Of a stretch of DNA of 64,000 nucleotides, positions 19,674 through 30,915 are shown in pieces. Source of the DNA: Bdellovibrio bacteriovorus HD100 (GTDB lineage: Bacteria > Bdellovibrionota > Bdellovibrionia > Bdellovibrionales > Bdellovibrionaceae); assembly GCF_000196175.1 (NCBI RefSeq), contig NC_005363.1, positions 1,550,001 through 1,614,000 of the forward strand, read 5' to 3'. The notes beneath the pieces were generated by a model. That model worked only from the letters and a program-made list of their open reading frames with translations, was not told the DNA's origin and ran no database searches. Both the position numbers and the translations under genes were made by a program. Numbering within the stretch: position 1 is the stretch's first letter; each line of letters opens with the position of its first letter.

Positions 19674-20087
19674 CTACTCGCGGCGGTAAAGTTTCAGGTC
19701 GAAGTATTTCTGCGGACCTTTGATGATACGAATCTTGGTTCCGTCCAGGTCTCTGAAGACAATCACGTCATAGAAGTGGGTCGGATCCATGGCGATCTTA
19801 CCATAGAACAACGGACCGTCCGCCTCCAGCCAACCGGTGGCTTTGTGTGTGAACAGGGCATGGGACTTGATGCGCAATGTGGACAGAGCGTCGCCTTCAC
19901 GCATTTCCAGATTCACAAACCAGATGGAGTTGTGATCATAAGCCACCCAGTCGCCCTGGAGCTGTTCGCAAGTGACCGGAGTCAGTGAAACAAACGTTGG
20001 CCATGGAATGACGGGGTCACCACCCGGGCCGCGGGCATGGGCTGAAATACTGAAAACAGCGAGAATTACTAACAGGAGTGTTTTCAT
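19674..20087 (-). CDS. Small secreted protein of unknown function
   Basis: A 137-residue protein with a clear Sec signal peptide (MKTLLLVILAVFSISAHA, cleavage expected after AHA). The mature part begins Gly/Pro-rich and then appears beta-rich, with CEQLQGDWVAYD, IWFVNLEM and YFDLKLYRRE, suggesting a small lipocalin-like or barrel fold. One mature cysteine is present. It overlaps the upstream TPR-regulator gene by 4 nt and ends 8 nt before the SpoU start, so it is firmly in the operon. I do not recognise a family. Confidence 0.7.
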   Translation of the reverse strand: MKTLLLVILAVFSISAHARGPGGDPVIPWPTFVSLTPVTCEQLQGDWVAYDHNSIWFVNLEMREGDALSTLRIKSHALFTHKATGWLEADGPLFYGKIAMDPTHFYDVIVFRDLDGTKIRIIKGPQKYFDLKLYRRE

Positions 20088-21211
20088 AAAGTAGCTTCCT
20101 CCGATTGTCTGAAGTGCACAGATGATTGCGGATTAAAGTAATAACCTTTGCGGTCGCGCAAGATGTATCTTGGGCTTTCCATGTCAGGCTCAAGCAGGGC
20201 GCGCAGACGTTTGATCGAAACGTAAATCAGATTGTCATGCAGTTCAGGGTCATAAGCCTGCTGCCAGATGATTTCTATCAGATCTTCCTTGGAATAACGG
20301 GTGCCGGCTTTTTTGATGAACAATAAAGCCAGGTCAAAAAGAATATGCTGATTGCGGAAGTCAATCAGGCCCTTGGTGCGCTCCTGAACACTGCGTGCTG
20401 CCTCGTCGATCTGGAAATCAAACTGAGGTGCATTGCGAACAATATCTTCAGGGCACATTTGACGGATGAATTTATAAACGCGTGGCAGACGGGCTTTGTC
20501 CGTTCCACGCAGCGCCAACTCTGCATAAATGCGATAAGCTTCTTTGTTACCCAGTTCGCGGTTCACATGGGCCATTTGCGCCAGGATACGGGAAATCAGC
20601 AGGTGGAAGCCATGCAGTTTGGCTTGTTCATAGCAGTCCCACAAAAGATCATTCGCCGCTTCCAGTTTGCCGGTTTGCGTGAAGATGTGTGTGCGCAACA
20701 GACGGGACGTCAGCTGCATTTCGGCGTTATCCATTTCAGCCAAAATGGTGTCGAGCTTGTTCAGCTGCAGCAGGCTTTGCGGGAAGTGGGCTGGTTCAAA
20801 AGCGCGGGTCATTGCATTGGTGAACAGGGCGCGCACCAGTGTGTCCAGGTCGCCAGTTTGCGTGGCTTTGGCGATGGCCGAGTTGATGTAGTCTTCGGAC
20901 TCTTGAATTTTACCGTTGGCCAAAAGCCAGGAGCCGATCAGGTTTTCGGCCATGGCCTGAAGGCCCTCGTCAGAAGAGTTGCGGCTTAATTTCAGAGTTT
21001 GATCAATCACGGATTGAGCTTCAGAAAGCTCTTCCAGTTCATGGCAGCATTGGAAGTACAGGCGGGCGGACTCGATCCAGTCTTGGGAAAGTCCGCGGGC
21101 CGAAGCCTCCACCATGGCTTCTTCACTCAATAAACGGGCCTCGTGCAGCGCCCCTTTACGGTGCTGCAAACGTGCCAGTTGCAATGAAGTGTTCTGGGTG
21201 GAGTTTGACAT
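20084..21211 (-). CDS. TPR protein with C-terminal OmpR/PhoB-type winged helix
   Basis: A 375-residue protein. Residues about 1-240 are helical repeats of TPR character (LARLQHRKGALHEARLLSEE and similar), and residues about 285-360 form an OmpR-type winged helix-turn-helix: a helix FDLALLFIKKAG, then SKEDLIEIIW, the recognition region LIYVSIKRLRALLEP and the wing YILRDRKGYYF. No receiver domain is present. SARP/BTAD-type regulators place the winged helix first, so this order is reversed. It probably senses a ligand or partner through the TPRs and binds DNA. The start overlaps the rsmG stop by one base (TGATG). Its targets are unknown. Confidence 0.75.
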   Translation of the reverse strand: MSNSTQNTSLQLARLQHRKGALHEARLLSEEAMVEASARGLSQDWIESARLYFQCCHELEELSEAQSVIDQTLKLSRNSSDEGLQAMAENLIGSWLLANGKIQESEDYINSAIAKATQTGDLDTLVRALFTNAMTRAFEPAHFPQSLLQLNKLDTILAEMDNAEMQLTSRLLRTHIFTQTGKLEAANDLLWDCYEQAKLHGFHLLISRILAQMAHVNRELGNKEAYRIYAELALRGTDKARLPRVYKFIRQMCPEDIVRNAPQFDFQIDEAARSVQERTKGLIDFRNQHILFDLALLFIKKAGTRYSKEDLIEIIWQQAYDPELHDNLIYVSIKRLRALLEPDMESPRYILRDRKGYYFNPQSSVHFRQSEEATL

Positions 21212-26813: not shown

Positions 26814-29096
26814 TTACTGGCAGAACTCTGCATTCGGGTCCTGTTGACAGGCCCATTTTTGCAGGGAATTCACTTGTTGCCTAAGTGCTGCATTCTCAGC
26901 TTTCAAAGCTTCATTCTCTGAATTCCATTTTGCATGGAACTCTTTCATCGCCTCTATCAGCGGCGCCACTAAATTCGCGTATTGCACTGCTAAAAATCCT
27001 TCGTTGTCTTTCGTGACCACATCCGGGAATACGGATTGAACCTCTTGGGCGATCAGACCCACTTGCTGGCCATTTTCAAAGTTCTTTTGCGGGAATTCGT
27101 CGGTTCTCCAGTCATAGGTCACCCCGCGCAGCTGCAGCACTTTTTCAAGGCTTGAGTCAATCGTTGCGATATTGCGCTTAAAGCGGCGATCCGAAGTGTT
27201 GGCCCAGGATGTGCCACCAGCCGTGCCATTCACGTGCAGCATGTAAGCCGGCGTCAGGGTGCCGATGCCGACTGAGCCGGCGTTGGCTTCTGTCAGCATC
27301 GCATATTTATTGGTGATCGTGCCCGTACCAGTTGGAGAGCGAATCACAATCCCGGTGAATTGATTTAAAGTGTCGAACGAGGAAATGCTGGATCTGATTT
27401 CCAAACCGGCTCCTTGATCCACCGTAATTCCTTTGCCAGCAGCGCCATCTAACAGAAAGTCCGAGGTGATGGCGTTGACCTTAAGCGCGGCGGGAAGGTT
27501 TTCAATGTTGCCCATTTTAACCAGTCCCCAAAGACCTGTTTGCAGTCCCGCAACAGTCGTCGCAGGGACAGAGCTGGGAGTGCTGAGTGTGACTGTGCCG
27601 CGAACGCCATAAGCTGATCCGGTAAAGCCTCCCGAGACGTTCATAAAACTGGTCCCGTCCAACGCGCCCTGATCACCACCCACAGCGACAGTGCCCGAGA
27701 CGGAATTTGTGATGCCGGCCGCAGGCCCTGTGATGCTGGAGTTGGCGGTGAAAGTGTTGCTGCCACTGACTGTAAAGCGTCCGGTGTGATAGCTGCTGCT
27801 GCCGCCGTAATAGCGTGAATCAAAAGCAAAGCCCGAGGGGCTGTTTGTTCCAGAGCCCATGTCGCCCAGACGATGACTTTTGTTTGTGATGGTATAGCGG
27901 GCTGTGCCCCCGGTGCCAATTGAAATGGAGTCATTGCCTGTGCTGAAAACTCCAGTGTCCGTATCTGAGGTGAAGGAATAGCTCGGTTGGGCCGCCGTGC
28001 CCCCGGAGCCACGTAAAGGGAAAGCAGGAGAAGGCAAGCGGGCGGCATCAATAGTTCCTGTCGTGATCACCCCGGCATCCAGGCCTGTGATGTTTGAACA
28101 GGCAAAGGCATCGGTCACCGCGGACCAAGTTAGCGTCTGAGAGGCCGTACAAGATGTTGTAAACTGTGCAAGCCCCGCAGAGGTGCGCAGATCATCAACG
28201 CCAAAAAACACGGGTTCAAGCTCGGTCGTGCCATAGCGATAAACTTGTCCTGCCTGGGGCGCGGTGGCAGCCACACTCACACTCTGGATCTTGGCCACGG
28301 TGGGGTTGGGAAGGGTGCCACTCAGATCACCGCCCAGGTTGGTGGAGGTCTGGAAAGCACCCGTGATGCGGCTGTCGTTGCCTTGTGCGGCGGTTCCGGC
28401 GGTGGTGCCGTAGTTCACGGCCACCGTTTTTGTGGTTGTTCCAGTGACAGAAACACCCGTGCCGGCAAGAACATCTGAAACAACTCCGGTTCCCCCCGCA
28501 TCCGTGACGCAGGTGAAGTTGGTGCCGTCAAAAAAGACGACCTGTCCGGCAGAGCAAGCCGCACCCGGAAGCGTGTTGGTGCGAACAAAGTCCGTGGCAG
28601 AATAATTTCCCAGTTTCAAGGCAGACGATGCAAAGTGCGCATAAGGCACAGAGCGGATCTCATTGTCCGGACTGATTTGCATCCAGCCTGTGCCGTCATG
28701 GAATTGCACGCTCAAACGGCGGGACTGGTTGGCCACGGGGCCTTTTTGGCTGGCTACATTGTTACCCGCGTCGGCGCAATCCAAAGTGGTGGAGTTGTCG
28801 AAAACTTCCTTCAGTCCCACGCTGCCCGAGGTAGGGAAAAGTTTTGTGCCGGTTCCCAATGGCACGTCAAAGACCCCTTTGGAGTTCGTCATGTTGACGC
28901 CATTTTTTTGTTCACGATAGTAAACGCACAGGCCGTCTTCGGATTTGATCTCGAACAGGAAGCTGACGTTGTTGTGTTCCAGCGGAGTTCCGTCGGACTT
29001 AAGAATCCGTCCCTGATAAGTCAGGGTGTTTGGCGCAGCCTGCGCAAAAAATGAAAACAACAAAATGGGCAACGTGGCAACAGTGGTTCTAAACAT
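26814..29096 (-). CDS. Secreted trimeric fibre-like protein with C-terminal S74 chaperone domain (MAT-like)
   Basis: A 760-residue protein with a signal peptide (MFRTTVATLPILLFSFFAQA), a globular N-terminal module of about 130 residues (TYQGRILKSDGTPL), a long Gly/Thr/Ser-rich repetitive beta shaft (ITTGTIDAARLPSPAFPLRG, DTGVFSTGNDSISIGTGGTARYT), and a C-terminal Peptidase_S74 intramolecular chaperone from about residue 640 (SDRRFKRNIATIDSSLEKVL, GVTYDWRTDEF, VGLIAQEVQSVFPDVV), ending in a coiled coil. S74 domains trimerise phage tail fibres and can cleave themselves off at the Ser/Asp junction. Bdellovibrio is known to deploy such chimeric trimeric fibres in prey recognition. The adhesin role and prey target are inference. 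Confidence 0.85.
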   Translation of the reverse strand: MFRTTVATLPILLFSFFAQAAPNTLTYQGRILKSDGTPLEHNNVSFLFEIKSEDGLCVYYREQKNGVNMTNSKGVFDVPLGTGTKLFPTSGSVGLKEVFDNSTTLDCADAGNNVASQKGPVANQSRRLSVQFHDGTGWMQISPDNEIRSVPYAHFASSALKLGNYSATDFVRTNTLPGAACSAGQVVFFDGTNFTCVTDAGGTGVVSDVLAGTGVSVTGTTTKTVAVNYGTTAGTAAQGNDSRITGAFQTSTNLGGDLSGTLPNPTVAKIQSVSVAATAPQAGQVYRYGTTELEPVFFGVDDLRTSAGLAQFTTSCTASQTLTWSAVTDAFACSNITGLDAGVITTGTIDAARLPSPAFPLRGSGGTAAQPSYSFTSDTDTGVFSTGNDSISIGTGGTARYTITNKSHRLGDMGSGTNSPSGFAFDSRYYGGSSSYHTGRFTVSGSNTFTANSSITGPAAGITNSVSGTVAVGGDQGALDGTSFMNVSGGFTGSAYGVRGTVTLSTPSSVPATTVAGLQTGLWGLVKMGNIENLPAALKVNAITSDFLLDGAAGKGITVDQGAGLEIRSSISSFDTLNQFTGIVIRSPTGTGTITNKYAMLTEANAGSVGIGTLTPAYMLHVNGTAGGTSWANTSDRRFKRNIATIDSSLEKVLQLRGVTYDWRTDEFPQKNFENGQQVGLIAQEVQSVFPDVVTKDNEGFLAVQYANLVAPLIEAMKEFHAKWNSENEALKAENAALRQQVNSLQKWACQQDPNAEFCQ

Positions 29097-29277: not shown

Positions 29278-29400
29278 CTATTTGTTGCTGCCATTTTTTG
29301 GGGAGGAATTCCCGGAACCGCCGGCCGAGCCACCACCACGGGCAGCGCCCTGTGAGGCGGCTAAAATGATCAGTAGAAGTAGGCTGATAAAGTGCTTCAT
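29278..29400 (-). CDS. Small secreted Gly/Ser-rich peptide, translationally coupled to an HTH regulator
   Basis: A 40-residue ORF: ATG at 29400, TAG at 29278-29280. The peptide is MKHFISLLLLIILAASQGA followed by ARGGGSAGGSGNSSPKNGSNK, that is, a strong signal peptide and a mature peptide of about 20 residues made mostly of Gly, Ser, Asn and Lys. AGGAG stands at ideal distance upstream, and the ATG overlaps the TGA of the upstream regulator gene (ATGA). These three features make it a credible gene despite its size. It may be a signalling peptide, a surface peptide or a degraded lipoprotein-like product; no homologue is known to me. Confidence 0.72.
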   Translation of the reverse strand: MKHFISLLLLIILAASQGAARGGGSAGGSGNSSPKNGSNK

Positions 29401-30164
29401 GAGGGCTCCTGAAGAGTGTCGATCACATTAAACATAAATATGGGCAAAGATCCCCGCGAAGAAGGATCTTCCAGCAGGCGCATTTTGTCCTGGAATGCCT
29501 GCACATCGATATCGAGCCACTTGCGATAGGTGGCTTCGTTGATGGATTCAAAAAACAGATTCATATAATTTGCATAGTTCTCGTCGGTGCGCGCGGGTTT
29601 GGAATACTTCTCCGTCAGGCGCAGTCCCACCGCTTTGATGGCCTCGGCAGAAAAGGTCGACCGGTTGCTGCCCAGAGCGTAGCGTCCGTTTTCCAGCAGG
29701 CGCAGCACATTGAGCTGTAACATCTTCTGCAGGACATCCAGGCCGTACTCGCCAAAACGGCTTTTGACGAACTTGAGGTCAAAAGGCCTTGTGTCTGCAA
29801 GGACATAAAGCTCAGAAAAACACGGGTCCTTGATCAGTTCCTGCTCGATAATGACATTGTACTTGTGCAGCGGGGAGGACTTCAGTTGGGGGTCGGTGCG
29901 TCTGAGCTTTTCCTGAATCAAGGCGGGTGCTGCATTCAGCATTTGCCCCAGATCCGCGGTTCCCATCAGGCAGGAATACAGCTTGTACAGGGTTTGATAG
30001 GTGGGGTTGTGCTCTTTTAAAACCAGACGTCTCAGTGTTTTTGTATGGATGCGGGTCTTGGCTGACAACTGCAGCAGCCCCTTGCGGGGATCTTTATGAC
30101 GTTGCAAAAATCGGCCAATGTCCTGGCTGACTTGATCCTGAATCGATGCGGTGGATTCCTGCAT
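29397..30164 (-). CDS. HTH-type regulator of unknown family, possibly TIGR02147/DUF4423-like
   Basis: A 255-residue protein. After a short N-terminal helix, GLLQLSAKTRIHTKTLRRLV with LKEHNPTYQTLYKLYSCLMG forms an XRE-like helix-turn-helix around residues 27-70. The C-terminal part contains a second possible winged-helix-like segment (FGEYGLDVLQKMLQLNVLRL) and a helical end (NYANYMNLFFESINEATY). This layout recalls the expanded TIGR02147 family of Bdellovibrio, but I cannot confirm membership. I chose the ATG at 30164 because GAGG lies seven bases upstream; a TTG at 30224 would start inside the preceding terminator. The stop overlaps the small secreted peptide gene. Confidence 0.65.
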   Translation of the reverse strand: MQESTASIQDQVSQDIGRFLQRHKDPRKGLLQLSAKTRIHTKTLRRLVLKEHNPTYQTLYKLYSCLMGTADLGQMLNAAPALIQEKLRRTDPQLKSSPLHKYNVIIEQELIKDPCFSELYVLADTRPFDLKFVKSRFGEYGLDVLQKMLQLNVLRLLENGRYALGSNRSTFSAEAIKAVGLRLTEKYSKPARTDENYANYMNLFFESINEATYRKWLDIDVQAFQDKMRLLEDPSSRGSLPIFMFNVIDTLQEPS

Positions 30165-30220: not shown

Positions 30221-30260
30221 TCAAAAATGAAACCCGAGGCTCGTTGAGGAGCCCCGGGTT
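30221..30260 (-). terminator. Terminator of the secreted-protein gene at 30272
   Basis: Read on the minus strand: AACCCGGGGCTC, loop CTCAAC, GAGCCTCGGGTT (a 12-bp stem with one mismatch), then TCATTTTTG. It begins 12 nt after the stop codon and separates that gene from the HTH regulator. Confidence 0.8.
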
Positions 30261-30271
30261 AAAAATGCAGA

Positions 30272-30736
30272 CTAGTGGCAGGAAGGGACAGTCAAAGCCT
30301 TGTTGAATAAGAATTTGTAAGTGTCATTGCGAGAGCTCATTTTTTTGGAAACTTTCACGTTCACAGTCAGTGGGTAAGTGCCAGAGACAACTTTGTCTGT
30401 GCAAACTTCACGGTTTTTACCGATGTATTTGCAGTCAGAAACTGTGCGAGTGTAGTTGATCGGAGTGTAAAGGTATTTGTAACCAGTGATCACTTCTTTA
30501 GAGCGGTTTTTGCCGATGAAGATGGTTTCTCTTTGAGCAACGGCTTTTTTAGTTCTTAGCATTTTTCCGTCAACGCACACGAAAGTGTAGTCAACTGCGT
30601 GGCCCATGAAAACAACAGGTGCGTCGATCTTCAGGTTGGTGTCAGCCATAAGAACTTCCCAGGAAGTGTCAGCTGTGTGAGCGGATGCCACGGAAGCAGA
30701 AATCAACAAAGCGATCATAGCGAATACGTTTTTCAT
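30272..30736 (-). CDS. Secreted protein of unknown function
   Basis: A 154-residue exported protein with signal peptide MKNVFAMIALLISASVASA. The mature part looks beta-rich with lysine-rich strands and four cysteines spaced as two pairs (VCVDGK, DCKYIG, VCTDKV, PSCH), so two disulfides are plausible in the periplasm. ATG at 30736 is preceded by AAAGGAG; the 20 residues of open frame further upstream are not needed. It has its own terminator and is divergent from the His-rich/Cys-rich pair across the GGACA/TGTCC cluster. No family recognised. Confidence 0.7.
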   Translation of the reverse strand: MKNVFAMIALLISASVASAHTADTSWEVLMADTNLKIDAPVVFMGHAVDYTFVCVDGKMLRTKKAVAQRETIFIGKNRSKEVITGYKYLYTPINYTRTVSDCKYIGKNREVCTDKVVSGTYPLTVNVKVSKKMSSRNDTYKFLFNKALTVPSCH

Positions 30737-30824: not shown

Positions 30825-30915
30825 CCGGACAAGTTTCTTTGTGTCCGGCGCAAGGTTTGGACAAGAGATGGTTTGTCCTTGTTTGGTATATTTTTTCCAT
30901 CATGTCAGAGGACAT
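30825..30915. promoter_or_regulatory. Cluster of GGACA/TGTCC inverted repeats in a divergent promoter region
   Basis: Three inverted repeats lie in the 298-nt gap: CCGGACA-N10-TGTCCGG (30825-30848), GGACAA-N8-TTGTCC (30859-30878) and ATGTC-N4-GACAT (30902-30915). Their centres are about 32 and 40 bp apart. They share a GGACA half-site (ATGTC/GACAT is a partial match). An AT-rich TATATTTTTT follows the second repeat. This looks like a multi-site operator for a dimeric regulator. Confidence 0.5.

Follow-up and report, generated by a model that had tools for sequence, protein, structure and literature searches.

A regulator gene overlapping a 40-codon gene for an exported glycine-rich peptide in Bdellovibrio bacteriovorus HD100: a candidate smallest form of a widespread regulator and exported protein arrangement

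The minus strand of the Bdellovibrio bacteriovorus HD100 genome carries three neighbouring genes, which we designate X, R and Y. They lie in a window of 64,000 nucleotides (positions 1,550,001 to 1,614,000 of contig NC_005363.1), and all coordinates below are counted from the first letter of this window. X (30272–30736) encodes a secreted, beta-rich protein of 154 aa. R (29397–30164) encodes a regulator of 255 aa with an XRE-type helix-turn-helix (HTH) and a winged-helix-like domain. Y (29278–29400) encodes an exported Gly-rich peptide of 40 aa. A terminator-like hairpin with a 12-bp stem is situated between X and R (30231–30260, minus strand). Directly downstream of Y, on the same strand, is a mosaic gene for an adhesive trimer fibre with an S74 autoprotease domain (26814–29096); no obvious terminator was seen between Y and this gene in HD100.

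The TGA of R (29399–29397) and the ATG of Y (29400–29398) share the tetranucleotide ATGA (29397–29400, minus strand). CTCCT at 29406–29410 reads AGGAG on the minus strand and provides Y with a Shine-Dalgarno sequence within the 3' end of R, 5 nt before the ATG; a GGAG-like sequence is found at this place in most orthologues. The original prediction of a regulator stop codon overlapping the start of a 40-residue ORF with its own AGGAG is thus borne out. The signal peptide and the mature part of about 20 residues that it assigned to the ORF are also recovered by crude criteria, as residues 1–20 and 21–40, respectively. The product consists of MKHFISLLLLIILAASQGAA followed by RGGGSAGGSGNSSPKNGSNK, the latter being the predicted mature peptide. 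The cleavage site was placed by the sequence pattern and by the AxA that most orthologues have, and signal peptides throughout this work were called by a simple script with crude criteria, not by SignalP. In 464 kb of HD100, an ORF of 30–60 aa with a crude signal peptide begins at about 0.6% of the ATGA sites, so the single HD100 case is weak evidence and suggestive only. Y has no match in Pfam or NCBIfam, and an Rfam search gave no match either. Elsewhere in HD100 the pattern GGG..[SA]GG occurs only within Gly-rich stretches of larger proteins and never beside a signal peptide.

Comparison of genomes is more informative. Of 24 genomes of the genus that were searched, 10 have an orthologue of R, as do a few further genomes of the family. 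A short Y ORF of 39–49 aa is retained next to all 13 close orthologues of R, starting at −4, −1 or +2. The peptides of this close clade all have Lys or Arg as their second residue, then a hydrophobic core, a cleavage site of the Ala type and the motif GGGxxGG. The five Gly of this motif never change, although the codons used for them differ freely. The mature part was compared between HD100 and its two nearest relatives in this comparison, G023 and G002. Between HD100 and G023, 2 of 42 nonsynonymous and 11 of 15 synonymous sites are changed (Fisher P = 5e-7). The corresponding numbers are 1/42 and 7/15 for HD100 and G002 (P = 2e-4), and 1/42 and 10/15 for G023 and G002 (P = 7e-7). Because it is kept in 13 of 13 close orthologues and bears the mark of purifying selection, Y is, on sequence grounds, a real gene whose mature part is under strong constraint. 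Neither absence of the small ORF from strains with the regulator nor frameshifts in it without purifying selection, both of which the original prediction had named as evidence against itself, were observed in these 13 loci.

R itself belongs to a family that is recognizable only by sensitive comparison. Pfam and NCBIfam searches with R and 22 members of its alignment gave weak HTH matches only and no match to TIGR02147 or DUF4423. A sequence search of the PDB gave weak HTH similarity only, for example to HigA (E 0.008). Alignment of the R family with the TIGR02147 paralogues of HD100, which carry DUF4423, by hhalign gave a probability of 96.3% (E 1.6e-9), colinear over 207 columns that include both the HTH and the C-terminal domain. 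Judged from this profile match, R belongs to a divergent branch of the TIGR02147 (Fsuc_second)/DUF4423 (PF14394) regulators. The AlphaFold model of R has mean pLDDT 80 and pTM 0.66. Its residues ~4–86 align with the HTH domains of SinR, DdrO and lambda repressor, which identifies an XRE-type HTH. Residues 101–251 are helical and winged-helix-like, their best match being 4g6q (Z 9.2, rmsd 3.8, 144 aligned residues). Foldseek with the model found no match at E 0.001 or better, and the TPR folds of the RRNPP regulators PrgX and ComR appeared with low probability only. In six R-bearing loci the R leader contains an inverted repeat that spans the Shine-Dalgarno sequence of R, for example CCCCTTC...GAAGGGGA; such a repeat might control translation of R.

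The neighbour X goes with R. A gene for a protein of ~155 aa of this type lies upstream of R in 15 of 15 loci of the family-level clade, at a distance of 107–198 nt, and a hairpin-like sequence is present in the gap in most orthologues. The R-linked type of X (>220 bits) and R are found in exactly the same 13 genomes. Within the genus their co-occurrence is 10/10 versus 0/14 (P = 5e-7), and genomes without R contain at most a weaker paralogue of X, designated X2. X has no match in Pfam or NCBIfam. Its model has a beta-rich fold (pLDDT 86.5), for which comparison with PDB structures gave no match with Z above 3.

The upstream regions of X share a tandem palindrome, GGACAA-N8-TTGTCC occurring twice, 30–32 bp apart. 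In HD100 the half distal to X is a perfect GGACAA-N8-TTGTCC palindrome (30859–30878), and the proximal half is a GGACA-N10-TGTCC palindrome (30827–30846). A search of 144 genomes of the class for the exact tandem pattern gave a single match in each of 9, always upstream of X and always together with R, and a reversed control pattern has no matches in the same 144 genomes. Six further R-bearing loci, L019 among them, have imperfect or single versions of the palindrome. The tandem palindrome is absent upstream of X2 in genomes without R. Among random 300-nt pieces of HD100, a comparable tandem site was met in 120 of 200,000 draws. One locus has X in a tandem duplication, where the first copy has both sites and the second has lost them.

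Because the palindrome and R co-occur, we infer that R binds the tandem palindrome. The presence of a single tandem operator per genome points to a circuit of local reach, not to a regulon that spans the population. In most loci this candidate operator precedes X rather than the R-Y pair, with the terminator in between. No such operator was found upstream of R, except for a variant in L019, and a search for a sigma70-like promoter for R found none.

The origin of the short Y can be traced in more distant loci. In eight outgroup loci the gene coupled to the regulator is longer (102–177 aa). The long products consist of a signal peptide, a Gly motif (e.g., GGIGGNAGG, GGGGSAGG or GGVGGAGGG) and then a domain. 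This domain is paralogous to X: in BLAST comparisons, whose E-values refer to a very small database, Y and X of the same locus are 72% identical in L020, 68% in L013, 56% in L066, 28% in L065 and 24% in L019. In the tree of R the 13 short-Y regulators form one clade (support 94/93) with the longer-Y regulators outside, and five still more distant regulators have no exported partner. Since the short-Y clade sits among longer-Y relatives, the most plausible origin of the short Y is a long Y from which the X-like domain was lost, leaving the signal peptide and the Gly head. No significant remnant of the lost domain was detected 3' of the short Y. The Gly head is absent from X.

The original prediction also expected the layout to recur beside related regulators, and it does so far beyond the R clade. 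DUF4423 regulators are present in 129 of 143 sampled genomes of the class, with up to at least 23 copies per genome among the matches listed. In HD100, 7 of 19 TIGR02147 genes overlap a gene for an exported protein at −4, compared with 17 of 422 other genes (P = 2e-5). Eight TIGR02147 genes of HD100 are coupled to such a gene by the crude criteria, and ten if we include two whose signal peptides were missed by the script and added by eye. In the 30 best-scoring DUF4423 loci of the class, a sample biased to high scores in which about a dozen loci represent one orthologous group, the regulator is followed by an exported protein in 30 of 30 cases, and 29 of these genes start from −17 to +2 relative to the stop codon. 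A GN[GA]G or similar motif lies within the first 60 residues of 25 of the 30 partners; four without it are all lipoproteins. An early motif of the GN[GA]G type is likewise found in 8 of the 10 coupled partners in HD100 versus 1 of 186 other exported ORFs (464 kb). About a dozen partners form one conserved family of 415 aa with ANNWYDRGN[AG]G, and many canonical DUF4423 relatives are coupled to exported proteins of 200–490 aa.

One locus, L121, appears from its gene content to be an intermediate that bridges the R branch and the canonical DUF4423 branch. It contains a gene of the X family, then a canonical DUF4423 regulator (E 3.5e-35) and then an exported protein beginning AGGSLVGTGGG. The L121 partner has an HELGH-type motif and is possibly a metallopeptidase. 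In this partner and in one from another locus, GGSLVGTGGG or GGDVVNNGGG, respectively, directly follows the signal peptide.

None of the papers searched gives a function for the TIGR02147/DUF4423 family or names TIGR02147. One of them mentions DUF4423, for the protein Bd3700, which is upregulated during growth in prey (PMC12546842). The coupled exported partner with an early Gly motif is, as far as these comparisons reach, a family feature found here and not a published definition. By the same comparisons, no form of this widespread, unstudied arrangement of one regulator and one exported protein is smaller than the HD100 pair.

Our favoured, though tentative, reading treats X-R-Y as a regulatory cassette that acts locally: R would control X, with the exported Gly head of Y as its feedback partner. 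R would bind the palindromes and set the expression of X. Translational coupling would provide R and Y in a fixed ratio, and Y would keep R informed of export. As long as the precursor of Y stays cytosolic, the Gly head, or else the entire precursor, would engage R; once Y is exported, the contact would be lost and R would change the expression of X. After release the peptide may do nothing more, or it may have a structural role outside the cell. The Gly head is probably where the partner contacts the regulator, either before export or after it, because the motif tracks regulator coupling and not the partner domain: Y has it and its paralogue X does not, unrelated DUF4423 partners also carry it, and it is the sole part left in the short Y. 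A broader and rather doubtful extension would make DUF4423-type regulators dedicated sensors with one exported client each. They would read a Gly/Asn motif beside the signal peptide of the partner translationally coupled to them, before (or after) export, and so tie the expression of a local secreted protein to the secretion status. The 40-aa gene of HD100 would be a minimal client, with a signal peptide and motif retained for signalling alone.

Conservation of the head is explained equally well if it acts outside the cell. R could simply be a transcription factor that serves X and Y locally, and the peptide could act only outside the cytosol, in a structural, adhesive or X-associated role, and never touch R. 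We regard such a purely extracellular role as nearly as likely as the feedback circuit. The X-like domain of the long Y implies that Y probably works where X works, and both the position of the operator upstream of X and the purifying selection on Y fit this role. It accounts less readily for the fact that the Gly head outlasts the X-like domain and is found solely in partners coupled to R, and for the early Gly/Asn motif of canonical DUF4423 partners with unrelated domains. Complete loss of function, i.e., Y as a decaying remnant of a lost secreted domain, is extremely improbable: the nesting of the short clade within longer-Y relatives is what would be expected of a relic, but the strong purifying selection on the head, the intact frames in 13 of 13 loci and the lack of a domain remnant downstream contradict it.

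Two further explanations place the peptide in familiar kinds of systems. A secreted peptide that is re-imported and sensed by R, on the model of PlcR/PapR or Rgg/SHP, would suit an HTH regulator co-encoded with an exported peptide of 20 predicted mature residues. We consider it improbable, as the peptide goes back to a larger secreted protein, each genome with the tandem operator has a single copy of it, a TPR array is not evident in the R model (mean pLDDT 80), and the Gly core is invariant in 13 loci rather than diversified into pherotypes. A toxin-antitoxin-like pair, with R as an antitoxin-type HTH protein and Y as a small membrane-active peptide, is less probable still. The gene order and overlap resemble those of type II operons, and R has its weak similarity to HigA-type HTH domains, but the homologues of Y are exported domain proteins, the conserved part of Y is a hydrophilic Gly head and not a hydrophobic segment, and the canonical relatives are often coupled to the large exported proteins described above.

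If the feedback circuit, or its extension to the family, is correct, DUF4423 regulators gain a testable logic of one regulator, one exported client and one local operator. In the short Y the conserved head stands apart from any enzymatic domain, so that its function can be probed most simply there. If the head signals, this would be export-coupled or peptide-based regulation in a predator that is Gram-negative and relies on secreted proteins.

Three known arrangements can be compared with R and Y. The RRNPP systems (PlcR/PapR, Rgg/SHP, ComR/ComS) also combine an XRE-type HTH regulator with an adjacent gene for a small exported peptide. R and Y differ from them in that the peptide comes from a longer secreted protein, there is one local operator, the host is Gram-negative, and TPRs are not evident in the model. 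The part of the original prediction that saw a pair of regulator and secreted peptide therefore stands, as the pair appears genuine, translationally coupled and under selection. The part that likened it to Gram-positive peptide quorum sensing is unsupported: the peptide represents a cut-down version of a larger secreted protein and is not evidently a dedicated pheromone precursor, its core is invariant, and the operator is single and local. Within the same window, a regulator with TPR and an OmpR-type winged helix (20084–21211, minus strand) has a stop codon that overlaps the gene of an exported protein at −4, like R and Y; the pair occupies 19674–21211, and the coupled protein of 137 aa begins with the Gly-rich ARGPGGD after its signal peptide. 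This regulator is of a family unrelated to R (Trans_reg_C and weak TPR matches). The closest likeness is to the TIGR02147/DUF4423 regulators, with which R and Y share the profile-matched HTH and C-terminal domain, the overlap with a gene for an exported protein and the early Gly motif in the partner. They differ from these in that R matches neither model, and the partner Y has just 40 aa and carries GGGxxGG in place of GN[GA]G.
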